The notes below the pieces were generated by a model that saw only the letters and a list, made by a program, of their open reading frames with translations, did not search any database and had not been told where the DNA came from. From contig VCJN01002033.1 of assembly GCA_006384855.1 (NCBI GenBank), forward strand, positions 1-64,000: a stretch of DNA of 64,000 nt. Direction: 5' to 3'. How positions within the stretch are numbered: position 1 is the stretch's first letter; each line of letters starts with the position of its first letter. Positions 2,519 to 50,743 of the stretch are shown one piece after another. This DNA is from Tetraselmis striata. Its lineage: Eukaryota > Chlorophyta > Chlorodendrophyceae > Chlorodendrales > Chlorodendraceae. A program made the translations under genes and the position numbers.

Positions 2519-4759
2519 ATGGCAGACGAAAAAATGGATCTTCCGGAGGGTGATCCGAAGAGCCACTCTCGCAACATATTCACCCGCTTCTGCGGGCCCG
2601 CGGTGTGGAGTCGCTGGTCGTGTGGCAAGGGCGACATCAGTGGGTTCTTTCAGCTGTTTTTCGACAACGTCGCGACGAGCTTGACCCTGGTCTTCCTGCT
2701 GGGCCCGTGAGCACCCGGCCCGCATCCCCCGAATCCCTTGTCGCGATGTCACACTGTGTTGTTCGCTCCCGGGACGCGACTGGCAAGTGATACACTTACA
2801 GCGTCTCCGCGGAAGCCTTTCAAGGACAAATGATTTAGACATCGCGACATCATGCATCTCCTCGATGTTTCGGACCTGTCTGGATTCTGCGGCTCGTGTC
2901 GTCACCCTGACTAAGTTATATACATCGTCAAGAGGGTTTTAAAACAACTCCGAGACACACGCTCCAGGGCAGTACCACCTGTCCCAACCCAAAGCCTGAA
3001 CCTATACGACTCTGACTTGCTCGTTCGTCGTGCTGCCGTGCGCTCCCTTTGCCTCAGGTTCGGTCTCGGCCTGCTGCAGTCTGAGGAAATTTACAGCGGC
3101 TTCTTGCCCGGCCTGGGCATATCTATGCTTTTCGGTAACCTGTACTACGCCTGGATGGCCTGCCGGCTGGGGGCGGCGGAGGACCGCAACGACGTCACCG
3201 CGAACCCGTACGGCATCAACACCCCCGGCGCCTTCGCCTACCTTTTCGGCGTGCTCGGCCCCGTGGGCTGGAGCCTCACCTGCCCCGAGGGTATGGATCC
3301 CACTAGCGGGGAGTGCGCTAGCTGGAAGTCTAAAGAGACGCTGGCCATCGGCGTGTCGGCTAACTTCGTGCAAGCGATAATCGCCGCCCTCCTGGGCTTG
3401 GTGGCGCCCTGGATCCAGCGCGTGTGCCCGGTGGCATCGCTGACATCGGCCCTCGGCGGTATCGGTATCACCTTTCTGGGCATCGGCCAGGTCATATATG
3501 CGTACGAGCAGCCCCTTGCTGGCCTGGTGCCGCTGTTCCTCATGCTGATCATTTACTTCTCTGGCCTGCGGACGGGCTACGCGCCTGAGGCGCTTGTCAT
3601 CGCCGGCGCTGGCACCATCCTGGGCTGGGCCGACGGCATCGTCACCGGCGGCATGGTGAGGGACGCCGCCACGGTTGTGGGCTGGAAGACGCCTCAGTTT
3701 CTGCTGGTCCCCATTTTTCAGAATATGGGCAAGCTGGCGCCCTACTTTGGCACCATTATCCCTGTGGCCATCACCGCTGCAACAAACACCCTCATGTGCT
3801 GGCAAACGGCCACCAAGAACGGCGACCAGTTCCCCCTCATTGAGACCATGGTGGTCGACGGTGTCGGCAGCGCCATCGCCGCCATCTTTGGCTGCCCCTT
3901 TGGGACCTCTGTGTACATCGGGCACACCGCGTACAAGCGGGTGGGCGCCAAAAGTGGCTACTCCCTGCTCAACGCCGCCTCCTTCATCATCTTGACGCTT
4001 TTTGGGCTGATGGGACTGGTGCAAGCCATCATTCCTATCCAGGCCGTGGCGCCCATCATTGTGTTTGTCGGTCTCATGATCGGCGCGGACGCGTTTGAGT
4101 CAGTGCCGTTCAGGCATATTGCGGCGGTGCTGCTGGGTTTCATGCCCAGCATCGGCGACTGGGCAGTCAACCAGTGCTCCATGGAGACAGCCGATGGCGA
4201 AATGTGCAATATCAGCACAGCACCGGTGAACGCGGGTCTGGTGGCCTTCAAGAGCGGCGCGCTCTTGGTGGCCATGCTTATCTCGGGCATCTTTGCCCAT
4301 GTGTGCGACCGGAAGTACCTCCAGGCGGCCATCTGGTCCACGGCGGCAGCCTTCATCTCCCTGTTTGGCATCATCCATGCCCCGGCCGCCAGCATCAACT
4401 TTGATAACGGCACACCGCAGGCTCAGTGGCGTTTCTGCGTGGGGTACCTCATGGTCGGCGCGATCTGCCTGATTTTGTTCCTGTGCCAGCGGTTTTTCCC
4501 CAGCCTGGTAGACCCGACCATCACCGACCCCAAGGAGTACATGTCAGTGTACCAGCTGGTGCACGTCGCCAACCGCCGCGAGGACGGGGTGGAGGAAGCC
4601 ATACAAAAGACTCTGGATGAGGGGCCCATATGGCAGGAGGTGGACTCGCGCAACAACAGCATGACTGGCCCCCCAGCTGCGGCCGCGCCGGAGATTGATT
4701 CCAAGGAGGCCAAGGCGGCGCTGTCAATTGAATCCACAAACAAGTCAAACAATGTGTGA
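2519..4759 (+). CDS. Xanthine/uracil permease-family (NCS2/XUV-like) transporter, two exons
   Basis: The coding sequence is 2519-2706 joined to 3058-4759, 629 codons. The intron 2707-3057 starts GTGAGC and ends TTGCCTCAG. Splicing in phase 2 joins FLLGP to FGLGLLQS and makes one continuous membrane protein. The family signature is clear: GDISGFFQLFFDN near residue 38-50, then NLYYAWMACRLG, and AEDRNDVTANPYGINTPG near residues 101-120, followed by about ten more hydrophobic segments. After roughly residue 535 comes a hydrophilic, probably cytosolic tail. NCS2-type carriers move purines, pyrimidines or related compounds, usually with H+ or Na+; the substrate cannot be told here. The start is the first ATG in frame. 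TGTAA words at about 5030 and 5070 are plausible algal polyadenylation signals. An extra upstream exon cannot be excluded. A long antisense ORF over 3002-4024 is a codon-bias shadow. Confidence 0.9.
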
Positions 4760-8785: not shown

Positions 8786-10202
8786 CCCCCCCCCCCCCCC
8801 CCCACCAGCCCTCAACGCCCCCTCTCCCATTCCCAGCCGTGCGACCCGCCTTTGCGGGTGCACCCACCAAGCGAGCCCCGCGCGTGCCTCGGCACCAGCT
8901 CCTATAGCCTAGCACTGGCCCCTTTAGCCTCGCCATCATCCAAGTGCCAGGCATCACACTAGCGATGGGGGAAGGAGAGGACAGGGAAGATTACAGGCAC
9001 CGGTGGGTGCGGCAGAGGGGGGAGGGGGATCAAAACTTTATGTGCGCTGGGAAGATGCGCTGCTATCCGTAGTCGATGCTGCTGGCGGCGCGCCATCTGC
9101 TCCGGCGCCTCGGGGTCCCGGAGCTCGTCCTCCATGAGCTGAGCAAGCAGGCATTTGATGCAGCACGCGCTATAGCCAGACATGCAGCTGCATGTGCACA
9201 GCACAGCACACGCGATTCAACACACCATGCGTTGTTCAACCTGAGTCCGCACACACATCACACAAGCACCAACGCCCCTACATGCTCATATCTAACACCC
9301 ATGGCTACCCTTCTGCGCAGCTTCAGACTAATTGGTGCCATTGGGGCGCTTGCGTTAAACGGCGAATGCGCAATGTAATCGTAATTGCGCACACCGCTCC
9401 CCCTCGGCAACGGAAGGGCAGGCGGCCAGGTCACCTTTGTCAGGCGCTCGTGGCAGGCCAGCGCGCGGTCGGCGGTCGGCGGCGCTCCTGGGGAGTGCCC
9501 TGCGGGGCGGTCATGGCGGCTGATGCCCAGCGCGCCGGGCCGGTTCCTGCATGCGGCAGCCGAGTGTGCAGCGGTTTCAGCGCGGTGGGCTGCGGCGTTC
9601 ATGCCGCAAACGGGAGCTGAGCGCACCATGCGCCGCTCAAAGAGGCTCCGCACACGCACAAAACATACACCCGCGCACCTAAGGGTCCATAGCCAACACC
9701 CATACCTACCCTCCTGGGCCATTTACACAGGTGGAGCGGGTGTTGCGAGGCCGGGAGACTCTCTCGCGCCTGTGTGAGTGGCGAGTGCGCGGTGCCGCAG
9801 CACCAACCGCAAACCGAGACGTGAAGGCGGGCAACTCACCTCCGCCGGGCGCTTTCGGCCGGCCGGCGCCCGGTCAGCGTGCGGGCAGGGACCAAGGGTG
9901 ACCCCTGGTCCCCGATCTCGTGTAAGCAAATAAGCACTGGCCGCCGCGGCCCGCCATCTGCACCAGCACGCGGCACAGCCCTGTCAACCCCCCGCCACGC
10001 GAGACGCAATGACGGACTGCACACTCCATAATGACGCAAACCCCCGTGTAGGTCTATGCACAACACACATACGCACGCGTGGGGACCGTTTACAGCCGGT
10101 GAGCGGGCGTGGTTCGTGATTGCAACTTCTCACTGTGACGTGCATCTCGCGTGTCGAGTGGGTGGTGGAGTAGCATCTACAGGCATGCGGGTAGCTGGGG
10201 GC
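8786..10202. other. Intergenic; degenerate GC-rich sequence
   Basis: No supported gene. A C-run lies at about 8787-8803. Segments around 9063-9310, 9540-9720 and 9830-10060 share loosely similar words (CGCCATCTGC, CACACACATAC, CTAACACCCAT/CCAACACCCAT). They may be decayed copies of one repeat of about 400 bp. The last 5 nt, GGGGC, are the target duplication of the adjoining copia element. Confidence 0.35.
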
Positions 10203-10633
10203 TATTTACAGAAGTCAATGGTCAAAGGTTTGACCCGCTGTTACAGGATGTTACAGTAATGTGACTTTCTAGTACTTAGTAGTACTCGATGCACTGGCTA
10301 AAGTATGATAACAGGGGCAGGAACAGCCCCAGGGACCCTGAGAGGAGCTGGAAACTTCTAGCGCATGCATGTCTTGAACAAGACATGCCTGCAGACCAAC
10401 TTTCTCTAGAGCCCTAGCTATCTGCTGTCACGGCCTGGCAGTAATGTAGGAGTTCTAGAGCCGCCGAAATGGCGGCTGAGGTAGCTTAATGTATGCAGTT
10501 TGGAGGATGCTGGACTGCAGCTCCGGGTGGTGGGGAGCTGCAGGCAGCAGCCAGTATAAAATGCAAGAGACACTTGTAAGAAACAGAGTCTTGAGTGCCA
10601 CCAAGCAGCCTGATACTTGCATAACTTTCAACA
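10203..10633 (+). repeat. 5' LTR of the copia element
   Basis: It aligns along its length with 17263-17690. Its first bases read TATTTACAG, where the 3' LTR has TGTTGACAG, so the terminal inverted TGTTGA is mutated here. The end TTTCAACA is kept. A TATAAAA motif at about 10555 is well placed as the promoter. The following GGTTATGGGC at 10634 is where the primer-binding site should be, but I could not assign the tRNA. Confidence 0.92.
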
Positions 10634-10943
10634 GGTTATGGGCTTGTTCACGTGCTAGCTTCCCTGCCTGGCTGCTCTACACTGCCCTCTCGTGCGCTGT
10701 CGCGCTGTGTAGCTATTGCTGCTGGTTGTGCCTCTGTCTTGAGGTGCTGTGGGCTGCGTGCCTACCTGCTGCTGTTCAGCACTGCTCGTGCTGAGGAGGG
10801 GTGTTATCTCCTCGTGGGCTGCTCTGCCCTGCCGAATTATTGGTCGACTACATCGAATCTTTCTCTCTCTGCGCTCGTCTCGCATCGACTTGCCTCCTGC
10901 TGGCTGGTAGCTCCTGCTGGTCCCTTCTGCCCCTGCTGTCCCC

Positions 10944-11950
10944 ATGGCCTCCACCAGTGCTGGAGTCATCAGCCCCGCTGAGGTTGAAAAACTGAGGCAC
11001 AAGGATTACAAGTTCTTAGAGCTAGACGATATCATACCTAAGCCCATGTTTTTGCTGTGGATGATGGACGTGCGCAGCGTAGTGCGCCGCGTCCGTGGCT
11101 ACGACAATGACGCCGCGGACACCGACCTGCACCGCTGAACATCACGCGGAGCTGGTGCGCTTTCTGTCTAACCTTGTGAAGAGCTCACTGATGCTTCGCA
11201 AGATCCAACGTGCTGCAACTGCGGCCACCTTTCGCGCAGGGTACCATGCCATGCGCGCCCTGCGTGACCGCTTTGTGGGCACTCGCATGGACGACATCCG
11301 TGCTGCCCTGGATCAGCTCCTGCGTGAGCCGCAGACACAACATGAGAGTGTGGCTGACTACATCGACCGCATTGAGGAAACCGAAGCTGCCCTGGCTGAT
11401 GTGGGTGGCCATGTGTCCGATGATGGCCTCATGGGAGCCCTCATATCCGGGGGCTGCGCCCAGAGCTGAACAACATGAGGCAAATCTTGCGCGGCCTCAC
11501 CTTGCCCACTTTCGATGACGTCCGCGTCAAGCTGCTGGAAATGCCCCAAGATACTGACGACATTGGTCCAATAGCCGCCTTCGCCGCCGCTGGTTCTTCA
11601 TCTGCACAAGGCGCGTCCACACTCGCGCAGACTGCTGCCGCCATGTCTGCCATGCAAGCACAGGTCGCTGAGCTGACTACCAAGAATGCTGATGAGCTTC
11701 ACGCTCTGATCGCCAATGGCACCGGCGGTCGTCGCTCCAATGGTGTCCGCAGCGGCGGCGAGATCAAGCCCTTCTCTGGCACGTGCTGGTACTCCAAGAA
11801 GGTGGGACACCGAAACTTTGAGTGTCCAGGCAAGAAGGCCGGCAAGAAGAAGGTACCACCGTCCGAGCAGGCTGATGACGGCGCTCAGGAGTTTGGCAGT
11901 CTGTCCTTTCACTTCGCATGCGTGGCGCTGGATGCGGGCGCTCACCTGCC
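10944..11950 (+). pseudogene. gag: copia Gag, frameshifted, with damaged zinc knuckle
   Basis: The start is ATG at 10944 (MASTSAGVISPAEVEKLRH). The sequence continues through the copia Gag region: LDQLLREPQTQHESVADYID near 11308-11370 and a glycine-rich linker. It ends in a CCHC-type knuckle at about 11781-11822, C-WYS-KKVGH-RNFE-C. The second cysteine of the C-X2-C pair is serine here (TCC for TGC). At least two frameshifts, near 11100 and 11465, separate the pieces. The knuckle would bind element RNA in the particle. Confidence 0.8.
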
Positions 11951-12689
11951 GGCCATGCCCGCTGAGGCATGGCGCCCTGTCGAGGTCACTGCTCGTGGTC
12001 GCTCCCCCGTCATACCCATCGCGCTCGTGAGGCGGCTACTCCCGTGTCAGATGTTCCAGTGGACAACCCTTTTGCCCTGCTCCCCCCCCCCCCCCCCCCC
12101 GATGCTCTTTTTGTCCGTGGCGCTACGCGCGCGCGCGCGCCGATGCCGTCCTTGCTCCCACAATCTAGCTTCCGCCGTGCTGCCGCTGCACCTGTGCGCC
12201 AGCCGCGTGTCATCCGTCCTGCAGACCATGGTCACCGTCCGCTAACTGCAACCGCTCAGGAGGGGATGCTGGCCTTCCAGGCTGCTCGCCTGAAGCAACA
12301 ATCAACAAGCAGCAAGCTGAGGAGCCGTGCTCATCGGATGTCTCATGTCTCCAGCCGCACTCGGTTTGGCTGTATTTGCTCCAAGATCAACAAGCACAGC
12401 TCGCGCCGCAGCGTTGTCAACGTCAACTGCACTGGAGCGGCGTCGTGGACCAGCCTCCCGCGCCACTTGCCGTCCTTCTGCCATGCACCTACCGATGATG
12501 GCATTGCTTCTGTTGATGACACTGCCTCGGTCACATCACTGGAGCCCGATCCCTGCGACATCGACATCGGTGACATTGAGGACAGCAACCTCGACGCGAT
12601 CGACCAGCTGAGTGCGCGGATGGCATTTGAGGCTGAGATTGTCGCCCTTGGAGAGCCTGATCCGCTGCCCTCACTGCATCATGTCAAAG

Positions 12690-13640
12690 CTGATCAGGAG
12701 TTGCTGAGCTCTCGTGCAAGGCCGCTGCACTACCTCGGGCTATGCTCTGGCGGACTGTTCGCTGTCCTGCGTGGACTGTGTGAGGAGGGACACACCTTCA
12801 GCCTCATCACCCTCGTGGAGAACGATCAACGTGTCAGCGAGACGGCCATGCACGAGCTGTGGAAACTGCAGGCTGAATTTCCCAACTCGCTGTCCAAGCG
12901 GGCGGTGAAGTCTGCTGCGTTCCGAGTTGACTGCGACATCACCGAGCTGACTGAGGACTCCTTCAATCACCTTCCGCCTATGGACATCGTGGTGGCGTCA
13001 CCACCATGCCAACCGTTCTCAGCTGCCGGCAAGGGTCTGGGCATGCACGACCCTCGTGCACAGCCATTCTATGCGTCATGTCAGGTGATCAAGGATCTTC
13101 ATCGCCGGCAGCCTTACCGCAGCTGGATTATTGGGAACGTCGCTGGTGCTGCGTGGTTCCCGCGTCTGTCTGAGGCTCTTGGGGAGCCCATGCTGGCGCA
13201 TGAATTGGGGTCCTCTGCTCGTCGTGACACCCTGATTTGGACCAACGCGCAGTCCATTGAGTGCCTTCGCTCCCATTACCATGCGTCCATGCAACGCCCG
13301 CGGGAGGTGGGGGAACTGCTGGTCAAGCATGGGTTCTCACCTGCCTGGACGGCGCCACCTCATCTGCGCCACAACGTCTTTCCCAAGTTCGTCTCTCGTG
13401 TTGGTAGCTGGGCCTATCGCATGCATGGCCCCACCCCCGGCAAGGGCATGCTGCTCCACAATGGCGTGCCCGAAGAGCCCAACTGCGCCATCAAGTGTGT
13501 GGCGATGGGCCATGACCCTGGTGCCGCGGATCTGCCTGGCATCTCTCATGTCCTGCGACACCAGATCATTGGTAGGTGCGGGCATCGACATCAATGTCGG
13601 CAGATGGCTCGTCAAGGCGATCTGCGCAGCCAAGCCCCCT
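12690..13640 (+). pseudogene. C5-cytosine DNA methyltransferase domain embedded in the copia polyprotein
   Basis: The long frame 11969-13642 holds the ordered motifs of m5C methyltransferases. Motif I is YLGLCSGGLFAVLRGL at about 12733, the AdoMet-binding loop. Motif IV is ASPPCQPFSAAGKGLG at about 12996, with the catalytic PCQ cysteine kept. Motif VI is present as WIIGNVAGA at about 13123, where the conserved Glu of ENV has become Gly. A motif VIII-like ARRDTLIWTN lies near 13219. A motif X-like LRHQIIG continues as GIDINVGRWLVKAI only after a frameshift near 13570. The domain runs on towards the protease, so it was part of the element polyprotein, not a host gene caught between LTRs. Retrotransposon-borne methyltransferases have been reported in some algae and dinoflagellates; function in this copy is very unlikely given the lost Glu and the frameshift. 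Confidence 0.88.
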
Positions 13641-13654
13641 GAGTCAGCGCTGCC

Positions 13655-16600
13655 CAGCATCCATGACTTTCCCGAGTCCTGGGTGTTTGATACTGGTGCA
13701 ACCGCACACATGACTGCAAACCGAGCTGACTTCTCGGACTACAAGGTCATCTCCCGGCGCTGGATCGGTGGCATGGGGAGCACGCTATTGGCGTCGGTAC
13801 AATCCACATAACAGTTTGCGACGCTGACCAACTGACGCACTTCATCGAGGTGTGCAACGTGCTGCATGTGCCTGACCTGGCCGCGAAGTCCAACCACCAG
13901 ATTCTACGCCCGTTCAGCGCTAGCTCGGCGCGGGACACTGATGCGTCTCTGGAGGTCGTCTTCACGTCACGGGGAATTGTATGACCCTAGGAGGAGGCAC
14001 CCACGTACCCTTGGAGCCAGTTGGTCGGCTGTTCATTCTTCATTCGTCCATCCTGCGTGGTGCTCGACGCCCAGCAGCGCGATCGTCTTGCTCCCCGTCG
14101 CGCCATCGTCGCCAAGACCCACGCCCACCGCCGCCAAGCACCTTGCCCACGGCCCTTGCAGCCACCAGCAGTCGCGATGGCGTGTCAGCCAAGATGCCGT
14201 GGCATGCTCGCCTTGGCCATTTTGGTGAGACTGCGCTGGATGCAATGCTAGCCGGCCTGCCGTCCACTGGCGTCAGCCTGCGTCACTACGCGCTTCCGTT
14301 CTGCCACTCATGTGCTATGGTTAAGGCGACTGTTGCTCCCCTTCCCCGTCAGTGTGCCGAGAAGCCCACTGTGCCTGGATCGCTGACTGGCTGGGATTTC
14401 TGGGAGGTTTCAGGTTGTGAGTCCTTGCAAGGCCATACCTCCTGCTGTGGTGCGTTCGACTATGCCAGCTCGCTGGCGTGCCTCTTCTTCTGCCAGTCGC
14501 GATCCGCCGCAGTTGCGTGCCTGCGCGCGTACAACACCATGATGGTCAATTACGGCTTCAGGCTGGCTGCCCGTCGCCTGGACAACGACTCTGCCTTCCG
14601 CAGCGCGGCATTCGTTGCTGCGTGTGATTGGCTCCAGATCCGCCGCACCTATGCGGAGCCATACAGGCAGTTTCAGAATGGTCTATCTGAGCGCGCTTGG
14701 CGTACCCTCAGCCTGTGGTCCCGCTGCATGCTACTGCACGCCAGCCTCTCTAATGCCTACTGGGAGTTTGCCATGACAGTGGCGTTGGTGATGTCCCCGT
14801 GCGGATCATCACGGGCCGCATGCCTGGCCTCAGCTGTCTTCGCGTGTGTGGCTGCCCGGCGTACGTCCATGTACCACGCACTACTCGCCGCAAACTGGCC
14901 CCGTCTGCCCGACATGGCGTCTTCGTGGTGTATTCTGCTGACTCGCCAGCCTGGCTTGTCTACTTCCCCGACACGCGCACAGTTGTGGCCAGCCGGTCTG
15001 TCACCTTCAACGAGACGCAAGCTGCTCTGTTGATGCCTCCACGGCTCCTGAGGATTGGCATGTTGCCACCTAGGAGGGGAGTTTATCGCCTGCAGGTCAT
15101 CAACCGTCTTCCAGCTCAGGAGGGGCAGGCCCCAGCTCAGGAGGGGCAGGCCCTAGCTCACGAAAGGCAGGCCACAGCTCAGAAGGGGCAACACCTACCT
15201 CAGGAGGGGCAGTCTGCCCGTCATGCAACCGCCGCGTGCAGCCCACCAACATGCCGATGGAGTGGCGCCTGCGCGTGGCCTGCAACCTGGCCAGGTCCGA
15301 CAACGAGGACGACAGCGACATCGAGTCCACTGAGGAGTGGGATGCTCCAAGAGCAGTTGCACCCAACCGTGAGGTGACCCGCCACCGCAGGAGCTCGCGC
15401 CACAGCCAGCAACACCGGGCCGCACGCCTCAGCTCCCGACACCAGCAATTCCACCCCTGCGTCCAGGAGCAGCCGCAGCACCACCAGCAACAGCAGCAGT
15501 AACTGACTTCAGGCGGACGAGCAGAGCGAGGCAGCCATCGGCCTTGATCCGCGACTCTGGCATGTGGCACATCAATGCGAGGAGTTATGCTGCTGTGGTA
15601 TCGCAACTGGCTTCAACAATAGCGGGAGATCAGCAGGACTTCACTCGCAGCATTGACCCGGAGGACTAGGCGTGGCTGGCGGGGGAGTCATCGGGAGATC
15701 CACAGTCCTACATGGAGGCCATCATGGCCCCCGATCAGCTGAATGGATGGAGGCGATGCAGTCAGAATATAACTCACTTACCTCTCGCAAGACGTGAAGA
15801 CTGGGTACACTACCAGCCGGTCGCAAGGCAGTAGACTGCAAGTGGGTCGACAAGACCAAGCACTACTCAGATGACAGTGTTGCGAGATTCAAGGCGCGAC
15901 TCTGCGCCAAGGGGTTCACGCAGGTGGTTGGCATTGACTACAACAAAACGTTCGCGCCGACTGTAAAGTTCACCACGTTGTGTCTGACTTTCTCATTGGC
16001 GGCGTACCTCAGGCTCACGATCGAGCAGACTGATGTGGACTGCGCCTTCCTGTATGCCACGCTGTCTGAGGAGATGTACATGAGGCAGCCCCATGGCTTC
16101 GAGCAATATGGCCCCAGCGGCGAGAGACTGGTCTGCCGTCTGCAGAAGGCTGTCTACGGCCTGAAGCAGGCACCCCACAACTGGCACCGCTTGCTTCATG
16201 ATTTCATGTCATCACAGGGCTTCAGACACCTCAAGACAGACCCGGGAGCGTACGTGTTCACTGATGGCCAGATTTCAGCATTGTGGCGATGTATGTCGAC
16301 GTCCTCATCGTCAGCAACTCGCAGACCTGGATCGCAGCATTCAAGGCAGCACTCGGCACACGTTTTGACATCAAGGATCTAGGAGAGTGCACGCGGTTGC
16401 TTGGAGTCGCTGTGGAGTACAACCGAGGCGCCAGGACCATTCGGACCCATCAGTCCAAGTACATCATGGAGCTGCTGGACAGGTTTGGCATGGCTGACTG
16501 CAAGCCCACTGCCGTCCCCAGCACTGGCAACGACCCCCGCGAGTCGGCACCACTTGAGGACCCCGTCACGGACCGCTCCGTGGTGGGTGGTCTGCTATAC

Positions 16601-17268
16601 GCCGCTGTCTTCACGCGCCCTGACATCGCAAAATATGTCGGTCGACTGTGTCGATTTATGTCGGCGCCCACACGGGCGCACATGGAGGATGCCCAGCACG
16701 TCATGTGTTACATGAAGGGGACCCACCAGCGTGGCCTGACCTTTGGCGGCAAGCCTGACCTTGAGCTGCGAGGCTTCAGCGGCGCCAACTACCGGACAAA
16801 CTACCCCAGTCAGTGCAAGTCTACCAGTGGCTACGTCCCCTGTGCGGCGCTGCCATCAGCTGGCTGTTCAAGCTGCATGCGTTGGTCGCGCTGTCCACCG
16901 CAGAGTCGGAGTACATCGCGCTATGCATGACAGTGCAGGTGGCAGCATTTCTCAGGCAGATGCTGATGAAGCTCGGTTTTCCCCAAGATGGGACGGCCAC
17001 ACCAATCGGCGAAGACAACCAGGCATGCATTAAAATTGCTACCACCGATGTGACGTCAGCGAGAACTAAGCACCTGGACATCCGCCTTCACTTTGTGCGC
17101 GATACACATCGGGACAGGCGTGTCAACATTTTCTATGTCCCCACGGCTGACATGCTCGCTGACATGTTCACTAAGCCGCTGTCCAACCCTCAGTTTGAGA
17201 AGCTGTGCAGGCTGGTGATGAATTTAACTGAGGACGCTGATCAGAATATCAGCGAGGAGGGGTGTTGA
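13655..17268 (+). pseudogene. pol: copia Pol: protease, integrase, reverse transcriptase, RNase H (degenerate)
   Basis: The protease shows WVFDTGATAHMT at about 13680. The integrase has the pre-integrase HHCC segment (WHARLGH near 14200, FCHSCAMVKA near 14299). Its D,D-35-E core appears as GWDFWEV near 14390, RLDNDSAF near 14575 and QNGLSERAW near 14675. Reverse transcriptase blocks follow: GIDYNKTFAPTVK near 15930, QTDVDCAFLYATL near 16025, VYGLKQAPHNWH near 16150. The catalytic box at about 16290 reads YVDV where YVDD is required. RNase H blocks are STAESEYIAL near 16895, EDNQACIKI near 17010, TKHLDIR near 17070 and DMLADMFTKPL near 17150. Frameshifts occur near 13800, 14800, 15100-15900, 16280 and 16800. 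A run of four or five AGCTCAGGAGGGGCAGGCC-like repeats lies at 15110-15215 in the spacer between integrase and RT. Confidence 0.9.
15110..15215 (+). repeat. Short tandem repeat in the copia integrase-RT spacer
   Basis: Five imperfect units of about 21 nt follow the form CAGCTCAGGAGGGGCAGGCC, diverging to CTCACGAAAGGCAGG and CTCAGAAGGGGCAACACC. The unit length is divisible by three, so the array reads as a degenerate heptapeptide repeat (AQEGQAP-like) in a non-catalytic linker. Confidence 0.7.
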
Positions 17269-17690
17269 CAGAAGTCAATGGTCAAAGGTTTGACCAACTG
17301 TTACATGATGTTCCATTAATGTGACTTTCTAGTACCTAGTAGTACTTGATGCACTGGCTAAAGTATGGTAACAGGGGCAGGAACAGCCCCAGGGACCCCG
17401 AGTGGAGCTGGAAACTTCTAGCGCAGGCATGTCTTGAACATGCCTGCAGACCAACTTTCTCTAGAGACCTAGCTATCTGCTATCACGGCCTGGCAGCAAT
17501 GTAGGAGTTCTAGAGCCGCCGAAATGGCGGCTGAAGTAGCTTAATGTATGCAGTTTGGAGGATGCTGGACTGCAGCTCCTGGTGGTGGGGAGCTGCAGGC
17601 AGCAGCCAGTATAAATAATGCAAGAGACACTTGTAAGAAACAGAGTCTTGAGTGCCACCAAGCAGCCTGATACTTGCATACCTTTCAACA
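17263..17690 (+). repeat. 3' LTR of the copia element
   Basis: It begins TGTTGACAGAAG and ends CTTTCAACA, so the outer six bases TGTTGA/TCAACA are perfect inverted repeats. It matches 10203-10633. The purine-rich AGCGAGGAGGGG directly upstream is a plausible polypurine tract. The 5 nt after it, GGGGC, repeat the 5 nt before the 5' LTR. Confidence 0.93.
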
Positions 17691-17981
17691 GGGGCGGGGT
17701 GTTCACCTCACAGCGGGCAGCTCCGGAGGCACCACCACCGGTCAACGGTCGGTCGAAGGGGTGGGAACCGGGTTTGGGCGGGCAGATTGGGTGGGATGGC
17801 GGGTAGGCCCGGCATGCGTCATGGTTGTGACGAGTGATGTAAGTGGGCCGACAGAGCAATGTCGCGGGCCGGCAGAAGGGCTTGTTCGGGGCCCACTTGC
17901 TTGTAGTGTATACGAGGTAAAAAAAGGGGGTGGCGCGGGGCGCGGCGTGCGCTGTGCTTATCTTAATGTCTGCCCTGGTAG

Positions 17982-18654: not shown

Positions 18655-21287
18655 CTACGGGATACGCAAAGGAAAGCGGGCGGGGTATTTCGCAGACACG
18701 ACACGATAATCAGGTTGTGTAAGCACAAGGCGGAGGGAAGGTGTGTAACGGGCATAGACATGCAGCATATCGACATTTTTGAGGTTGGCGTAGGGTTCCC
18801 ATGAGTCGTGGGAATCGTCGAAGCCGGACCACTGCACAAGAAAAACTAAGGCAGGGCCGCGGGCATGGTGTGGCGAGTGGTGGTCAATGCGGTGGTCGCG
18901 AATGGCATCGACGATGTATTCGTCTTGCGGGGGCTCAATGCGGCCAGGTATGCTATCGGCGGGAGTGTCTGGGGATTCACAGCGGAGCAGGCGAGGTATG
19001 TGGAACACGGGGTGGTAGGCCACGCCGGGGGGCAGGCGAAGTTGGTAGGTTTGCGAGGAAATTTTGCGGACGACGGGATACGGGCCGATGTAACTTTGGC
19101 GGAATTTGCGAACTGGTTGGTTGCGAAGCATGAGGTGTTGTGTGGAAAGTCACACTCTGTCGCCCTCGGTGAGTTCGTCGGGACGAGTTCTACGGTTGGC
19201 ATATGCTATTTGGTATGCGTCGGCGAGTTTTACTTCCTCTGTGATTACGGCATGGGTATGTTGTATCTGTGGAACGGTATGAATGTGATCCGCGGGGTCG
19301 CTCGGCCGGTTGAAACAAGAGGTTTGCGGGTGTTAGCGGGTTCATGCCGTAGCAGGCCTCGAACGGGGTGCGTTTAATGGCGGAGTGATAGGCGTTGATA
19401 TAGCTGAATTCGGCAAGAGGCAAATTATTGAGCCATTCAGTGTGGTTTTGGTGCACGAAAGAGCGGAGGATTTGTTCAATGGTGCGGTGCGTACGTTCGG
19501 TTTGTCCGTCCGTTTGGGGGTGTATGAGGAACTGATATTTAATTTTGTACGTAAAGATCGGAACATATTTTGCCAGAAGGTCGAGGTGAAGCGCGGGTCG
19601 CGGTCAAATATTATGGTGCGGCAAAGGCCGTGGTGGCGAAAAAATGTTATCGATAAACAAGCGGGCGAGTTGGGGGTGTCCATGTGAATACTGCATGGAA
19701 TGAAGTGGGCTTGTTTAGTAAAAGTGCAGACAAATGTGGCGATAGTGTCGAAGCCATTTCGCGTGGGGAGAACGGTGATAAAGTCCATGGAAATGACTTC
19801 CCAGGGTCGTGTGCCTTTGGGTAGAGGCGACAGAGAGCCTATGGGGCGCTGGGTGGGATTCTTTATGCGTTGGCAGGTCGGGCAGGTGCGGCAGTAATTT
19901 TTAATGGTTTTGCGCATTTGGGGCCACCAAAATGTTTTGGAGATGTTGGCGAGCGTGCGTTCTACATCGGGGTGGCCGGCTGCGTCGTGGAATTCTTGGA
20001 TAATTAAGTTAAGCAGGGGTTATCAGACGTTGGTAAGCAGACCTTATCAACTATCCAATACAAAATGTCGTTGGTATCGAACATAACGCCAATGGGAATG
20101 CGATTGCCATAATAAGTTGCGGCAGTTGTGTAGCCGTGGCGGATGCGAACAAGTAATTGTGGATTAACTTGCAGGTGGCACATGGTTGAGAAAAAAATCA
20201 TGCATGTCCTCCAGATCCTTATCAAGAAGTTGGGTGTCGTGTTCATTTAAGTCATGGCGCACGTCTGGACGGCGGGAGAAGACATCAGCTTCATTTTGAG
20301 ATCCTTTGCGATATATATAGGATTTGTAGGACGGGTTGACCTGTGCGGGCGTGATTAGCAAGGTATGGGGAAATGGCACTAAGCCATAGGGAGTGACGGC
20401 GGCCTAGCGCGGGTTGATCGGGTAAGTGGCGGAGTGTTGCGTGGTCGGTGATGACAGCTATGCGGCAACTGCCTTCGATATAGCAGCGCCATTCGTTTAA
20501 TACGCAGACCACACCCAAAAGTTTTTGATCATAGGTGGGGTATCGAGTATGGGCAGGTTGTAAAATTTTAGCGTAGGAAGCGCGCATGGTCGGAGGTGGC
20601 AGGTGGAGTCTTTATGCAGTAAGACTCCGCCCAGGGCATATTTTTGAAGCATCTGTTGAGACTACAAACTCGGCGTATGGGCATGTTTTAGGAGTCATTA
20701 AGACCGGGGCTGAACATAGTGATTGTTTAAGAGCATTAAAGGCGACATGCTCGCGTTCCCCCCACATATTGTTTTTGGTTTTGCGGCAAATATCATAGAG
20801 AGGGGCCGCCATGTGGGAATATTTGTTGACATATTTGCGAAAAAATTGCAGAATCCAAGGAACTTTTGTATTTGTTGTACGGTTTTAGGCGGGACCCAGT
20901 CGCGAGCTGCAGCAATTTTATTTTCGGAAGGACGTGTGCCATGTTGGCTGACCATATGACCTAAATATTCCAGGTCATTTTTGGCGAAGCAAGAAGCATT
21001 TAGGCAATCGCAGCCGTATGTCGTTATCGGCGAGGAGGTTGAGTGTGGCATCAAGATGTATCAAATGGTCATCGAGTGAGTTGCTGAAGACTAGTAAATT
21101 GTCAAGATAAACAAGGATAGATGTGTTTTTGTGCGGTTGAAGGACGTTATTCATCCACCGTTGGAACGCCGAGCGAAGGGGCATTAGACAGGCCGAATGG
21201 CATATTAACCAGAAATTCGAACTGGCCGAACTGAGTTTTAAATGCACGGCGTTCCTGAAACGCGAAAACGCGCTTTTTGTACGTCCT
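18655..21287 (-). pseudogene. pol: gypsy Pol, 3' part: end of RT, RNase H, integrase and chromodomain
   Basis: Reading leftwards on the minus strand, the RT resumes as AFKTQFGQFEFLV-MPFGLSNAP (about 21250-21170), then FQRWMNNVLQP and SILVYLDNLLVFS, where YLDN stands for the catalytic YLDD. RNase H-type blocks follow: STDASK near 20660 and YPTYDQKLLGVV near 20540 with VITDHATLRHL. Integrase has CRTCPTCQRIK near 19890, MDFITVLP near 19780 and FDRDPRFTS near 19600; the expected third acidic residue region is altered (KRTDKPN). The chromodomain is at about 18930-18770: EYIVDAIRDHRI, LVFLVQWSGFDDSHDSWEP. It probably directed integration into methylated-histone chromatin. Several frameshifts and stops. 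Confidence 0.88.
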
Positions 21288-21410
21288 TGTAGCACCACAC
21301 CCCCTATCAGCGGTGCTTGGCTACCACACGACCTCAGGGCATACCCAAAACCCTTGCGGACCTCGAATGTGACATGTACGGGTTAATGCGCGCTAGTACA
21401 TGCGGGCTAA

Positions 21411-24300: not shown

Positions 24301-24312
24301 ACTCGATACCCA

Positions 24313-24775
24313 GCGCGGCGCCAAGGCGCGGCGGCCGGGGCAGCGCGGCGCCAACGCACGGCGGCCGGGGCAGCGCGGCGCCAACGCGCGGCGGCCGGGG
24401 CAGCGCGGCGCCAAGGCGCGGCGGCCGGGGCAGCGCGGCGCCAAGGCGCGGCGGCCGGGGCAGCGCGGCGCCAAGGCGCGGCGGCCGGGGCAGCGCGGCG
24501 CCAAGGCGCGGCGGCCGGGGCAGCGCGGCGCCAAGGCGCGGCGGCCGGGGCAGCGCGGCGCCAAGGCGCGGCGGCCGGGGCAGCGCGGCGCCAAGGCGCG
24601 GCGGCCGGGGCAGCGCGGCGCCAAGGCGCGGCGGCCGGGGCAGCGCGGCGCCAAGGCGCGGCGGCCGGGGCAGCGCGGCGCCAAGGCGCGGCGGCCGGGG
24701 CAGCGCGGCGCCAAGGCGCGGCGGCCGGGGCAGCACGGCGCCAAGGCGCGGCGGCCGGGGCAGCGCGGCGCCAAG
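24313..24775 (+). repeat. 30-bp GC-rich minisatellite, about 15 units, in frame
   Basis: The unit GCGCGGCGCCAAGGCGCGGCGGCCGGGG plus CA (30 bp) is repeated about fifteen times with almost no divergence. The changes are CAACGCACG and CAACGCGCG in the first units and CAGCACGGCG near the end. The period is a multiple of three, and the plus frame reads a decapeptide RRQGAAAGAA repeated through 23944-25005, joining the transposase-like exon to the shared 3' segment. The opposite strand is also open (APRCPGRRAL). The near identity points to recent expansion or to polymerase/assembly slippage. Confidence 0.9.
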
Positions 24776-39801: not shown

Positions 39802-40013
39802 CGGCGTGGGGCGCCGCTCGTCGGAGCTGCAGGAGCCTTGCGAGGCCACCTTTCGGTGACCGCCGCAAGACGCACCCTTGCAGCTCAACGGCGGGATGAG
39901 CGCCCTGTGTCAGGACCTGACCCCCCACCTTACAGACTTCATTTAGACCTTCCTCGGTGCGGCGCTTCTTACAGCTACAGCCGAGTGCGGCTCAACCATC
40001 CGCACGCCTGCAC

Positions 40014-41462
40014 ATGGCGGCTCAACCATCCGCCTTTCTTACAACCCCATCTCTGCGTTCGTCGGTTGTTACACTACGTGTTACAACCGGTTCGCAACGA
40101 CCAAGTTTCGCGCGTGTACGTTACGCACGGGACAGGCGCTGCGAGCGCGAAGGGCGCGCGGGGCGGCCCTCTTACCTGAACCTAGCCCCGCAAACCCGTA
40201 CTGGAACTACTGCAAACCCGTCCAGCAACTACCGGCCAACCGCCGGGAACCTAACTGCTGCTGCCGAGTACTTTGCGAACAGTAGCCGTGCCGGTGGAAC
40301 TCTGTCAGTAAAACGACGCACTTACGTAATCGACGAGCCCGCAGCTATCGCTCCATGGGCTACGTCACTGCGATCTCGGCTGCAGGACGCGTTCGGCTCA
40401 GACGAGCTAGGCCAGCGGACGCTGGACCTGCTCTCCAGCTCCCTCAGCGCGCAGACCCTCAAGAGCTACGCCGGCAGACTGTCTCAGTTCGCTGAGTTCT
40501 GCCACGACTCCGAGAACATCAGCCCGCTGGAAGCGACTACTGCTACTGTTGTTCGGTACGTTGCCTGGATCGGGGAGCGAGGGCACATCGCAGCTAAGTC
40601 GCTGCAGCCCTACCTGTCTGCCATCAACACCTTCTTCGAGCTGCACAACCTCGTCCCGATCGCCAAGGACAGCCTACACCTCACTTCGGCAAGGCGTGGG
40701 TTAATGTTGCGGCAGCGCCGACTTGACGCTGCCCCTCTGCGTGTCCCTCTGCCTGCGGATGTAGCTTACCGCTTCGTCTCAAAGGCCGAGCTAATTGTGT
40801 CTGCTCCTTACCCAGAGTCCCACCTCGACTACCGAGCTCTCTTGGCCTCGGTTGTCAACTTCCTGTTCTTTGCCAGGGGCCTTACTGGCGTCTCCTGTCG
40901 AGTGCAAGATGTGCATGTCGACACCTACAACATCACCTTGCAGATCTACCGCGAGAAGGGTCGGGCTGGCCGTCGGGGACCCGACGACCTGCGCGTACTT
41001 CTCCTTCCAGTGTCCGAGCACCCTCGAGTGGCACGACTCTTGCGCTACTTCATCGACAACGTCCAGTCTGTCCCCCTGGTTACTGTTGGCTTGGCTGCCT
41101 CCAACTTCTGGGCTGTCAATGTGGCTGAGCAGTCAAAACCTTGGACTGCGGCTACGATGTCAGACTGGTTGTCTACAGCAGTCAACCTAGTCAACGCTGC
41201 CCCTCCTGCTGGCACTTCCTGGACTTCCCACAGTCTACGCAAGGGCGCAGCCTCTGCAGCAAACGCCATCGGAGCGCCACTGTCCCACATCCGCTACCAA
41301 GGCGGTTGGGCCACTAACTCCGATGTCGTTCTGGACTACATCGACCCCAACGTTCTTCCTTCTCCTGGCGCGTGGTTCTTCTTTGGACACATCGCCCCCC
41401 TCCGCCACTTCCAAGTCCAACAGGACTCCGCAGCGGTGGCCTTCCCAGTGCCTCCTTCATGA
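40014..41462 (+). CDS. Tyrosine recombinase ORF2 of copy A
   Basis: From ATG 40014 there are 482 codons. An N-terminal SAM-like core-binding domain (LSAQTLKSYAGRLSQFAEFC, then VVRYVAWIGERG) precedes the catalytic domain. The first conserved arginine probably lies in NFLFFARGLTGVS. Box II is SWTSHSLRKGAA (H-x-x-R), followed by IRYQGGWATNS (the H/W position) and the nucleophile in VVLDYIDP. All catalytic positions expected for a tyrosine recombinase are present. The frame is open upstream to 39921. Relative to copy B there are 5 extra bases at about 39938-39944, so an N-terminal extension from the overlapping frame joins in B but not here. The enzyme would integrate a circular intermediate. Confidence 0.88.
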   Translation: MAAQPSAFLTTPSLRSSVVTLRVTTGSQRPSFARVRYARDRRCEREGRAGRPSYLNLAPQTRTGTTANPSSNYRPTAGNLTAAAEYFANSSRAGGTLSVKRRTYVIDEPAAIAPWATSLRSRLQDAFGSDELGQRTLDLLSSSLSAQTLKSYAGRLSQFAEFCHDSENISPLEATTATVVRYVAWIGERGHIAAKSLQPYLSAINTFFELHNLVPIAKDSLHLTSARRGLMLRQRRLDAAPLRVPLPADVAYRFVSKAELIVSAPYPESHLDYRALLASVVNFLFFARGLTGVSCRVQDVHVDTYNITLQIYREKGRAGRRGPDDLRVLLLPVSEHPRVARLLRYFIDNVQSVPLVTVGLAASNFWAVNVAEQSKPWTAATMSDWLSTAVNLVNAAPPAGTSWTSHSLRKGAASAANAIGAPLSHIRYQGGWATNSDVVLDYIDPNVLPSPGAWFFFGHIAPLRHFQVQQDSAAVAFPVPPS

Positions 41463-42330: not shown

Positions 42331-43165
42331 TCCCGGGCCACTCCAATAGCGGCACTAGGCCGAATGTAATGTGAAGGCGCCGACAGGAAAGGAGCTTCGA
42401 AGTTGAGGTCTCGCAGCAAGGAGCGGAAGTGGGGGGGTCCAACCCAGAACGGGGCACAACGGGCGTGCATCAGACGCAAGCCACCCAACGCCAGATGCGC
42501 CGCCAGCTCGGTCGCGTCCTTTTCCGCCAAACGTAGAACGCCTTCCCAAGCACAACATCCCGGGCCACTCCAATAGCGGCACTAGGCCGAATGTAATGTG
42601 GAGGCGCCGACAGGACAGGAAGGGAGAAAGTGCTCAACGAGTAGGGAATGCAGAGCCGACCGGGCCAGCAACGACGTAAGACGCCGGTGTCCAACGCGCG
42701 TTGTTCCGCCCAGCGCCAGATCCGCCGCCAGCTCGGTCGCGTCCCCTTCCGCCGAACGTAGAACTCCCTTCCCAGCACAACATCCCGGGCCACTCCAATA
42801 GCGGCACTAGGCTGAATGTAATGTGGAGGCGCCGACAGGACAGGAAGGGAGAGGGTGCTGAAAGAACAGCGAACAGGGACTTGACCGGACCAGCAACGAC
42901 GTAAGACGCCGGTGTCCAGCGCACGTTGTTCCGCCCAGCGCCAGATCCGCCGCCAGCTCGGTCGCGTCCCCTTCCGCCGAACGTAGAACTCCCTTCCCAG
43001 CACAACATCCCGGGCCACTCCAATAGCGGCACTAGGCCGAATGTAATGTGGAGGCGCCGACAGGACAGGAAGGGAGAGGGTGCTGAAAGAACAGCGAACA
43101 GGGACTTGACCGGACCAGCAACGACGTAAGACGCCGGTGTCCAGCTCACACTGCTCCTCCGCGGC
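42331..43165 (-). repeat. 225-bp tandem repeat array, about 3.7 units
   Basis: CCACTCCAATAGCGGCACTAGG occurs at 42338, 42565, 42790 and 43015, so the periods are 227, 225 and 225. The last three units are nearly identical, while the first is diverged. 225 is a multiple of three and two minus-strand frames stay open (43188-42634 and 43018-42470), reading 75-residue repeats such as LVPLLEWPGMLCWEGSSTFG or ARDVVLGREFYVRRKGTRPS. Which frame, if any, is translated is not known. The flanks carry related TCACAACGAAGTGA words (about 42140 and 43195), so the array may sit inside a transposable unit. Confidence 0.85.
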
Positions 43166-46164: not shown

Positions 46165-47613
46165 TCATGAAGGAGGCACTGGGAAGGCCACCGCTGCGGA
46201 GTCCTGTTGGACTTGGAAGTGGCGGAGGGGGGCGATGTGTCCAAAGAAGAACCACGCGCCAGGAGAAGGAAGAACGTTGGGGTCGATGTAGTCTAGAACG
46301 ACTTCAGAGTTAGTGGCCCAACCGCCTTGGTAGCGGATGTGGGACAGTGGCGCTCCGATGGCGTTTGCTGTAGAGGCTGCGCCCTTGCGTAGACTGTGTG
46401 AAGTCCAGGAAGTGCCAGCAGGGGGGGGAGCGTTGACTAGGTTGACTGCTGCAGACAACCACTCTGACATCGTAGCCGCAGTCCAAGTTTTTGACTGCTC
46501 AGCCACATTGACAGCCCAGAAGTTGGAGGCAGCCAAGCCAACAGTAACCAGGGGGACAGACTGGACGTTGTCGATGAAGTGGTGCAAAAGACGTGCCACT
46601 CGAGGGTGCTCGGACACTGGAAGGAGAAGTACGCGCATGTCGTCGGGTCCCCGCCGGCCAGCGCGACCCTTCTCGCGGTAGATCTGCAAGGTGATGTTGT
46701 AGGTGTCGACATGCACATCTTGCACTCGACAGGAGACGCCAGTAAGGCCCCTGGCAAAGAACAGGAAGTTGACAACCGAGGCCAAGAGGGCTCGGTAGTC
46801 GAGGTGGGACTCTGGGTAAGGAGCAGACACAATTAGCTCGGCCTTTGAGACGAAGCGGAAAGCTACATCCGCAGGCAGAGGGACACGCAAAGGGGCAGCG
46901 TCCAGTCGGCGCTGACGCAACATTAACCCACGTCTTGCTGAAGTGAGGTGTAGGCTGTCCTTGGCGATCGGGACGAGGTTGTGCATCTCGAAGAAGGTGT
47001 TGATGGCAGACAGGTAGGGCTGCAGCGATTTAGCTGCGATGTGCCCTCGCTCCCCGATCCAGGCAACGTACCGAACAACAGTAGCAGTAGTCGCTTCCAG
47101 CGGGCTGATGTTCTCGGAGTCGTGGCAGAACTCAGCGAACTGAGACAACCTGCCGGCGTAGCTCTTGAGGGTCTGAGCGCTGAGGGAGCTGGAGAGCAGG
47201 CCGAGCGTCCGCTGGCCTAGCTCGTCTAAGCCGAACGCGTCCTGCAGTCGAGATCGCAGCGACGCAGCCCATGGAGCGATAGCTGCGGGCTCGTCAATTA
47301 CGTAAGTGCGTCGTTTTACTGACAGAGTTCCACCGGCACGACTACTGTTCGCAAAGTACTCGGCAGCAACGGTTAGGTTCCCGGCGGTTGGCCAGTAGTT
47401 GCTGGACGGGTTTGCAGTAGCTCCAGTACGGGTTTGCGAGGCTAGGTTCAGGTAAGAGGGCCGCCCCGCGCGCCCTTCGCGCTCATAGCGCCTGTCACGT
47501 GCGTAACGTACACGCGCGAAACTTGGTCGTTTCGAACCGGTTGTAACACGTAGTGTAACAACCGACGAACGCAGAGATGGGGTTGTAAGAAAGGCGGATG
47601 GTTGAGCCGCCAT
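46165..47613 (-). CDS. Tyrosine recombinase ORF2 of copy B, intact
   Basis: From the ATG at 47613 (MAAQPSAFLTTPSLR) to the stop at 46165 there are 482 codons, the same length as copy A, with a few percent of residues changed (FELHN/FEMHN, DLRVLL/DMRVLL, SDWLST/SEWLSA). Catalytic H-x-x-R (SHSLRKG), GGW and DYI are kept. The open frame continues upstream to about 47778 without ATG, because 5 bases present in A are absent here, so a longer product by alternative start or splicing is possible. Confidence 0.87.
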   Translation of the reverse strand: MAAQPSAFLTTPSLRSSVVTLRVTTGSKRPSFARVRYARDRRYEREGRAGRPSYLNLASQTRTGATANPSSNYWPTAGNLTVAAEYFANSSRAGGTLSVKRRTYVIDEPAAIAPWAASLRSRLQDAFGLDELGQRTLGLLSSSLSAQTLKSYAGRLSQFAEFCHDSENISPLEATTATVVRYVAWIGERGHIAAKSLQPYLSAINTFFEMHNLVPIAKDSLHLTSARRGLMLRQRRLDAAPLRVPLPADVAFRFVSKAELIVSAPYPESHLDYRALLASVVNFLFFARGLTGVSCRVQDVHVDTYNITLQIYREKGRAGRRGPDDMRVLLLPVSEHPRVARLLHHFIDNVQSVPLVTVGLAASNFWAVNVAEQSKTWTAATMSEWLSAAVNLVNAPPPAGTSWTSHSLRKGAASTANAIGAPLSHIRYQGGWATNSEVVLDYIDPNVLPSPGAWFFFGHIAPLRHFQVQQDSAAVAFPVPPS

Positions 47614-47814
47614 GTGCAGGCGTGCGGGTGCCGCACTCGGCTGTAGCTGTAAGAAGCGCCGCACCGAGGAAGGTCTAAGTCTGTAAGGTGGGGGGTCAGG
47701 TCTTGACACAGGGCGCTCATCCCGCCGTTGAGCTGCAAGGGTGCATCTTGCGGCGGTCACCGAAAGGTGGCCTCGCAAGGCTCCTGCAGCTCCGACGAGC
47801 GGCGCCCCACGCCG

Positions 47815-48964: not shown

Positions 48965-50743
48965 TATATGTTACTGCTTCCACCCCGCAGTCGATGTAGA
49001 GGACCTTTCTGATTGCCTTTTATTTTGGTGATTTCCGATATCGCCTTATGCTGCTAGCTCATGTAAATATAATGGTATAATACAGGGTATCGGCGGCGCT
49101 GCCTCGTGCGCCCGCGGAGCTCTGCTATTGCGACTGCCGCACATACCATTGTAGCCGTAATCCTTACGTACGGGTAGTCGCTCGTCGCTCGAGGTAGTGC
49201 CTCATCAGCCAAATATGTTGTACAAGTAGACCCGTTGCAAGAGTGTGGAATCGAGAGTCGTAAGGGTCAATCGTAGTAGTCGCTATACATTGTAAAGCCA
49301 TGCGTCCGCCGAACCAGCCGACCCGGGGCCCGGCGTCCATCGACGGACGGGCGGCGAGGCGGACGGGCGACGGTCGCCTGGCGTCCGGCGACGGACGAAC
49401 GACGGCGTCCGGCGTCCAAGTATGGTCCACGCGACGGGCTCGACGCTTCGCGCCATGCCCGCCCCGTAGACGTGACGAAGTGACGAACGGCGACCACCGG
49501 CCCGACCGGCGGCGGCCGGGCGACCGGTGCCCATTCGGGTACCGGGAGTCAGCATGTAAGCGCGGAGAATATTTTGGCCTGCGCGGAATTATGACGGAAT
49601 CTATAGCGGAAACATGGTCTATATATAATAAACTATGTGAAACTGTTCCGAAAGTCGGCGAAAGACACACTCACGCACGCACGCGGAGACCTCGTGATTG
49701 ATATAGTAGGATGTCATTTATCAAGTTACATGAGCTAGCTGCAAAAGGCGATCAGGAAATCCCTTTCCTAGAAAAGGCAATAGGAAACGTCCACTTCCTA
49801 CATAAATTGCGCGGTGGAAGCATCACCAGAAGAGGGTGCGGAATGAGCACGGGCAGACGCATCAGACTTGGCCGTCTGCACTCCGGCAGAGAGAATGCCG
49901 CCCAAGATACCATGCACGCAATAAGCAGAGACTCGCGGCAACAACCCCTGCCGCGTGCGCGACATGTGACGGCGGAATTTGAATTTAAAATTTATTACAA
50001 CGTGCTAGTTTGCTGCTCTCCAACGCCCAGACTGAGTTGCTCTTAGGGCATGCCATCTCTAACGGACCGTAGTAAGGAACACATATAGCGTAAATACAGC
50101 TCAGGCTTCCGGCCATCCTCTTTCGTTTCCAAGCCCCGCCTCCTTCCATCACGTGAACTGTTTTGCAATTTGTCATTGCGCCCTGTTTTGCAAAAGCTGG
50201 GCTATTTGACCCTGTTCTGCTAATCAAGTCAGAACTGTACCCTGCTTTGCAATTTTCCCCTGTTATTTCATATATACGGTACACATCTGATAGATAATCC
50301 TACCATAATCCATCTTTTTTTTTGGTGCTTTCCTGATATCGCCTTCTGCTGCTAGTTCATGTAATTGTATAATACAGGTATATTGCACGACGATGCTGCT
50401 TTGCACCCTGCAGCACGATGAGCAATCATTATCACCAGTATGTATCGACTACATTATATATAGTCGCTACCTGTAGCGACTACATGTAGCGACGCCGGCT
50501 GATGGGAGCGACCCTATGTATGTATATCACATGAATGGAGGGCGGCAGATGTCACGGCGGCCCGGCGGACAATATTGTCGTCGTACTCGCGCTTCCCACT
50601 ATACAGGATAGCTCATGCACAGCTCAGACGCAGTGATGCAGAATTTGAAGGGGGACGTCGCATGCGCCGCAACGTCCTAGCACCTGGATACCGCCAGCAT
50701 CGTTGGTTGACGGCGAGGTGGTGCTAGTGCTGGCGCAGGCGCC
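48965..50743. other. Intergenic between copy B and the SBP gene
   Basis: Dispersed motif copies at 49011-49067 and 50318-50367. 49300-49540 is GC-rich with GGCGTCCGGCGACGGACG-like words. 50150-50250 has three CCCTGTTTTGCAA-like words. A small ORF (49711-50046, MSFIKLHELAAKGDQEIP) has no recognisable family. The SBP promoter should lie in the last 300 bp. Confidence 0.4.

Follow-up and report, generated by a model that had tools for sequence, protein, structure and literature searches.

Retrotransposons that carry their own cytosine DNA methyltransferase (DNMT) are already established among LINE, DIRS and Gypsy elements (PMC5890265), and the sections of that study on which we draw describe the Copia elements of Symbiodinium as having no DNMT domain. 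Two Symbiodinium systems – SymbioDIRS-Dnmt3 and SymbioLINE-Dnmt – resemble the elements considered here in that a C5 DNMT is encoded within the polyprotein or ORF, occurs in many copies, retains its key residues and is under purifying selection; they differ in being DIRS (tyrosine recombinase) and LINE elements, whereas ours is copia (PMC5890265). KnitGypsy-Dnmt3 of Klebsormidium nitens is likewise an LTR element of the green lineage with a Dnmt3-type domain in its polyprotein (its Ka/Ks is below 0.2), but it is classed as Gypsy, and its comparison with the copia domain is one of description only (PMC5890265). SymbioDIRS-Dnmt3 domains carried out de novo CG methylation in yeast; the DNMTs of KnitGypsy and SymbioLINE showed no activity in the yeast tests, a result reported there as inconclusive (PMC5890265). 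As possible gains from methylation the 2018 discussion names evasion of recognition, shielding from deamination and lower harm (PMC5890265), and a 2025 paper mentions, in the portion consulted, LTR Copia in streptophytes, pointing to the same earlier work (PMC12344493, citing PMC5890265). In the literature that we searched, with subscription journals and Repbase mostly outside it, we found no report of a methyltransferase in a Tetraselmis copia element, or of a copia clade from several sources sharing one. DNMTs in retrotransposons are known; what is new is a copia clade of multiple sources that shares one.

The window – the whole 64-kb stretch of Tetraselmis striata DNA that was analysed – contains at 10203-17690 one Ty1/copia LTR element of 7.5 kb, oriented along the plus strand. 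A preliminary description of the locus had proposed searching volvocine and other chlorophyte genomes; the host is no volvocine and belongs to the class Chlorodendrophyceae. That description had also noted LTRs with a perfect GGGGC duplication, and this is borne out: the five-base target-site duplication (TSD) lies at 10198-10202 and again at 17691-17695, and the two LTRs are identical at 408 of 427 aligned bases (4.4% divergence). The 5′ LTR (10203-10633) opens with TATTTACAG; the 3′ LTR (17263-17690) opens with TGTTGACAG and ends in TTTCAACA. Immediately 3′ of the first LTR stands a probable primer-binding site, GGTTATGGGC (10634-10643), which we take to be the complement of the anticodon arm of initiator tRNA-Met. 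The copies of this family fall into five subfamilies, or clades – A (the window copy and those on contigs C998 and C1713), B, C, D and E – and the same position reads GGTTATGGGCC in D, GGTTATGGCT in B and C, and GGCTATGGGCCC in two of three E copies. A polypurine tract, GAGGAGGGG (17254-17262), precedes the 3′ LTR, and the motif recurs in subfamilies B, C and D. A search for RNA families and tRNAs found none within the 64-kb window. In having integrase before reverse transcriptase, an RVT_2 domain downstream of the integrase, two LTRs with a 5-bp TSD, a stretch resembling a primer-binding site and a polypurine tract, the element agrees with Ty1/copia (Pseudoviridae); it departs from that group in an enzyme of about 300 residues together with a long linker, such that in the intact copy P0002 the zinc knuckle occupies residues 277-293 and the protease begins only at 1133.

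A Ty3/gypsy remnant adjoins the element on the minus strand (18655-21382); it has a chromodomain as well as rve and zinc-binding integrase domains. Farther along are two inverted tyrosine-recombinase ORFs, near-identical by eye (39921-41462, plus; 46165-47814, minus), which belong to a tyrosine-recombinase mobile element; Phage_int_SAM domains were seen in the first, the only one of the two scanned. There are also a 30-bp tandem repeat of 15.5 copies (24311-24775; 98% matches, open on both strands) and three copies of a 225-bp unit (42484-43149). An ORF at 50711-51661 (plus) with a terminal SBP-box DNA-binding domain is probably one exon of a transcription-factor gene, and a 614-aa ORF at 2915-4759 (plus) has by eye the look of a purine-type membrane permease, with no Pfam match at 0.01.

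The window copy is a dead, damaged relic of a methyltransferase-carrying Ty1/copia family. Gag (10944-12245, probable start ATG at 10944) is split over several frames, with tblastn matches at 11140-11451 and 11445-11996. Its zinc knuckle (11784-11825, in frame 11424-12245) is present, as the preliminary description had it, but in degenerate form, C-X2-S-X4-H-X4-C, the second Cys having been lost where P0002 has CYNCNAIGHLARNC. The C5-cytosine methyltransferase, recognised both by PF00145 in a 558-aa frame at 11966-13642 (E=3.4e-9, scoring 37 bits where the cut-off is 22) and by alignment with 15 other copies, extends with motifs I-VIII and a TRD-like region over 12647-13579, or to 13610 if the remnant of motif X is counted. 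Thus the central claim of the earlier account, a methyltransferase inside a copia polyprotein between Gag and protease, is upheld by PF00145 and by flanking copia domains in the proper order. The full set of motifs that it listed survives only in part. Motif I (LGLCSGGLFAV, 12734-12766), motif IV (SPPCQPFSAAG, 12998-13030; catalytic Cys codon 13007-13009) and motif VIII (ARRDTLIWTN, 13217-13246) are in place, but the stretch IIGNVAGA, taken for an intact motif VI, is damaged: it carries GNV in place of ENV (13133-13141), the catalytic Glu having become Gly. Motif X persists as VGAGIDINVGRWL (13572-13610; GACVDSNVARWL in P0002) in the ORF 13236-13811, out of frame with motifs I-VIII owing to a shift near 13570-13580, and the motif set at 12690-13640 is therefore not intact.

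The remaining parts are in a similar condition. The active-site stretch of the protease, WVFDTGATAHMT (13680-13715), is accompanied by a Pol_BBD match of 1.8e-5, below the Pfam cut-off, and the gag-pre-integrase and integrase core (13942-15033, frame broken) give PF13976 at 1.1e-4 and PF00665 (rve) at 9.3e-4, both likewise below; so is Gag, at 0.019. The reverse transcriptase lies in two frames (15798-16930; PF07727, 5.5e-39 and 3.2e-12), followed by an ORF for the RNase H region (16765-17268), of which 16840-17265 aligns with the end of the intact copy and in which the Pfam scan gave no match. DNA_methylase and RVT_2 are thus the domains that exceed their cut-offs, and the domain order is that of copia. 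What had been read as a single long frame from knuckle to protease is, from the frame breaks in this dead copy, three: the knuckle in 11424-12245, the methyltransferase in 11966-13642 (TGA at 13640) and WVFDTGATAHMT in 13236-13811. With an intact copy as tblastn query the element is matched in ten separate pieces, and this, together with loss of the motif VI Glu, rules out an intact enzyme at this site.

Some of its relatives are in better repair. The genome (224.1 Mb in 2903 contigs) holds at least 126 matches, 20 of them within stop-free frames of at least 2,000 aa; the count is a lower bound because scores were obtained for 125 of the 489 initial candidates, and one broken copy can yield two matches. 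Twenty stretches of about 10 kb, chosen mainly for open frames and including two relatives of the window copy, were fetched. An ORF of 2,011-2,483 aa is present in 14 (it ends early in L021, at 2,011 aa, and in L034, at 2,057 aa), and intact copies encode Gag-linker-MTase-PR-IN-RT-RH within one ORF. A search that permitted shifts of up to 8 bases recovered a 5-bp TSD in 18 of the stretches and found none in L037 and L039. LTRs mostly start with TGTT; their terminal bases are CA in clades A and D, and AGA or AAA in clades C and B. In 8 of the 20 stretches the two LTRs are identical, which suggests recent movement. Queried with the MTase region from an intact copy, a protein search gave four hits, each of them a T. 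striata gene model with 94-99% identity, and a volvocine host is rejected on this evidence. One stretch, L039 (C998:6700-16699), is 98.7% identical to the window element, 3′ flank to 18217 included, while the 5′ side differs, and for this reason we regard it as likely to be a segmental duplicate or a haplotype of the window insertion and not an independent copy.

The preliminary description had called for a search for other intact copies, and LTR-bounded copies with intact frames and the ENV Glu were indeed found. It had also pictured an outcome in which a host gene had been inserted once, with no further LTR-bounded copies; because intact LTR-bounded copies occur elsewhere in the genome, that outcome is not what we see, and 126 matched places rule out a one-off insertion. 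The broken state of the window copy and its missing catalytic Glu are what would be expected of a fragment of host gene carried as a passenger in one dead element, but given 20 places in long open frames and the constrained evolution described below, we consider this highly improbable.

Evidence for constraint comes from the residues and from the rates. The catalytic Cys of motif IV is kept in 35 of 36 MTase rows and the Glu of motif VI in 34 of 36, the exceptions for Glu being the window copy and its duplicate on C998. Of 18 pairs, 15 have a dN/dS ratio of 0.18-0.43; higher values are 0.59 (L033-L050), 0.75 (L044-L045) and 1.02 (L042-L043). Among further pairs, L030-L034 gives 0.58, and L024-L027, one of six close pairs in which linker and MTase were compared, gives an MTase value (0.67) above that of its linker (0.37). 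In most of these pairs the domain is under constraint, and some are nearer to neutral. An alternative reading is that the domain helps the integration complex to bind DNA or methylated chromatin, catalysis being incidental. The domain adjoins Gag, and chromodomains play such a targeting role in gypsy elements; nonetheless, retention of both catalytic residues goes beyond the needs of binding, and we think a targeting module improbable.

As to the type of enzyme, the family combines a PF00145 match above the cut-off of 22 bits (P0002, 44 bits; L022, L036, P0101, P0026 and P0063 also above) with the catalytic Cys and Glu of C5-methyltransferases, although the window copy itself lacks the Glu. 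The whole polyprotein of L033 falls short at 18.5 bits, and the Pfam scan gave no PF00145 match in P0124. The Pfam match spans just 54-87 residues of the domain, and the Pfam and NCBIfam matches are to the generic C5-methyltransferase family. In structure prediction, for two models the top 37 and top 38 of 50 rows, among candidates preselected by Foldseek, are DNMT3A/B/C. The catalytic domains of DNMT3A and DNMT3B are thus the nearest solved folds and share the motif order I-IV-VI-VIII-X, yet the structural alignments carry only 12-20% identity and motif IV here is mostly PPCxPFS. The predicted DNMT3-like fold suggests de novo methyltransferase activity. By sequence against the PDB, HaeIII and DNMT2 rank above DNMT3A, with profile bits close together.

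The DNMT2 match (1.1e-6, aligned over motif IV) raises a different substrate. DNMT2 methylates tRNA, and a DNMT2-like domain might methylate the element's RNA, or its primer tRNA, within the particle; the stretch after the 5′ LTR that resembles a complement of initiator tRNA-Met, best in clades A and D, would suit such a role. Both predicted models are nevertheless closest to the DNMT3 fold, and we judge action on RNA unlikely, if a little less so than a targeting role.

The source of the domain was sought more widely. An MTase tree separates all of its 13 rows from six bacterial enzymes (100/100). Four scans of viral contigs gave 44 loci for query A1, with similarity mostly confined to motifs IV-VI, and no confirmed locus with P0101, P0063 or P0124; of the 67 pattern matches from one scan of genome contigs, none was confirmed. 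A viral or bacterial donor is compatible with these scans.

Carriers extend beyond Tetraselmis. With the RT region as query, the 120 best-scoring proteins out of 3881 copia proteins were taken, and a domain profile applied to 136 proteins found the methyltransferase in 8 of that best 120. Four are T. striata clusters (P0003, P0004, P0005 and P0024, the last in pieces) and four are ENA clusters (P0026, P0063, P0101 and P0124) with the domain at the same position in the polyprotein. In P0026, P0063 and P0101 the Pfam domains stand in the order MTase-PR-IN-RT; in P0124 the profile places the domain, at 267 bits, between CCHC and PR. The other 112 of the best 120, which include copia proteins of plants, fungi, arachnids, Tetradesmus and Haematococcus, gave no domain match at E 10, though gene models may miss it. 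Accessory sequence of other kinds is also seen: the related ENA copia polyprotein P0099 has an OTU protease domain (PF02338), and residues 271-320 in the Gag part of the carrier P0026 show weak, sub-threshold similarity to zinc fingers of the CCCH and C2H2 types.

Whether the domain was gained once is a question for the trees. Among Tetraselmis copies, clade E stands apart from all others at 100/100, by MTase as well as by RT. Clades A+B+C group at 86/87 in the MTase tree and B+C at 90/95 in the RT tree; as the RT tree gives no support for the placement of A and D, the two trees are without supported conflict. An RT tree with more rows joins A+B+C at 98/93. On a longer pol alignment (IN-RT-RH) of 24 selected rows, one non-carrier, P0076, joins the eight carriers in a single clade at 98/94, and forcing the carriers alone into one clade is not rejected (p-AU 0.205); a single change suffices, though, in only 16% of the bootstrap trees, the other 84% requiring more than one. 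Several captures, or swaps of the domain among copia lineages, are therefore a real if less favoured possibility, one that concerns origin only and is compatible with the mechanism proposed below. On the 42-row RT tree P0101 groups with the non-carriers P0055, P0076, P0078 and P0079, a domain-free Tetraselmis family (99/96), so that carrier labels must have changed at least twice, and the positions of clade E and P0124 lack support. Set against this are the 98/94 clade, the p-AU value, the shared position of the MTases and their joint separation from the bacterial enzymes. One capture at the base of the carrier clade followed by one loss appears, from the alignments, to be the simplest account, with swaps between elements possible. 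The preliminary description had wondered whether this lineage represents an independent capture. Our data answer in part: the carrier is copia and not DIRS, LINE or Gypsy, the MTase and RT trees of Tetraselmis copies show no supported conflict, and the domain is shared with ENA copia polyproteins from other sources.

Taken as a whole, we infer, with a probability of roughly 0.6, an old single capture of a gene since kept as a de novo methyltransferase that methylates the element's own DNA. An ancestral copia would have taken up the methyltransferase once, in a clade extending beyond Tetraselmis. From what is known of copia biology, the element's protease would cut the enzyme out of the Gag-Pol polyprotein, and the freed enzyme would be packaged in the particle together with RT and integrase; there the double-stranded cDNA – or, later, the fresh insert – could be methylated de novo, a step that the DNMT3-nearest fold fits. 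Incoming DNA so methylated might resemble that of the host, or escape attack directed at unmethylated DNA. A more elaborate version is offered tentatively, as somewhat short of an even chance: that in a copia clade of several unrelated hosts one ancient gain of a DNMT3-fold enzyme, borne in the particle, marks cDNA before integration – an 'epigenetic passport' – and has been lost in at least one sister family that shares the genome and still thrives there.

Base composition bears on these proposals. The CpG ratio is 0.74-0.86, with TpG/CpA raised, in clades A-D, and 0.95-0.97 in clade E. In the window outside the element it averages 0.98 (sd 0.12) over 103 overlapping 2.7-kb segments, which span 0.73-1.21, and in a host-like ORF it is 0.85. 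The depletion in clades A-D is a hint of possible past methylation, uneven among clades and absent in E. We do not take it as proof of methylation. The same depletion, with the constraint on the domain, could accompany self-restraint, in which the enzyme methylates new insertions, the host silences them, and copies become fewer and harm less. Host-type 5mC enzymes have been described in relatives of Tetraselmis – in the portion of the source drawn on, DNMT5a in one species and DNMT6 in three (PMC9998398) – and would be at hand for such silencing. But self-silencing is, as a general argument, hard for selection within an element lineage to maintain, and clade E shows no depletion; we regard self-restraint as a minor contender, slightly better placed than action on RNA.

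Against the reading we prefer, methylation of the element's own DNA by a captured enzyme, stands a family that does without it. P0076, a T. striata copia cluster of 103 member sequences without MTase, falls inside the carrier clade, and the enzyme is therefore not required. With P0055 and P0079 it makes up an abundant T. striata copia family that lacks the domain and lies within or close to the carrier clade, and so offers a natural control for the domain's effect.

Here a genomic parasite bears the kind of enzyme with which hosts silence it. The pairing of an element with its own DNA-methylating enzyme is unusual, and it allows self-marking to be tested. The genome of T. striata holds intact, very young carriers beside a related copia family free of the enzyme, and a comparison of the two could show how the domain affects methylation and spread. 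If the domain is common to copia elements of several sources, then captures of this kind can persist and spread, and are not mere oddities of single lineages.
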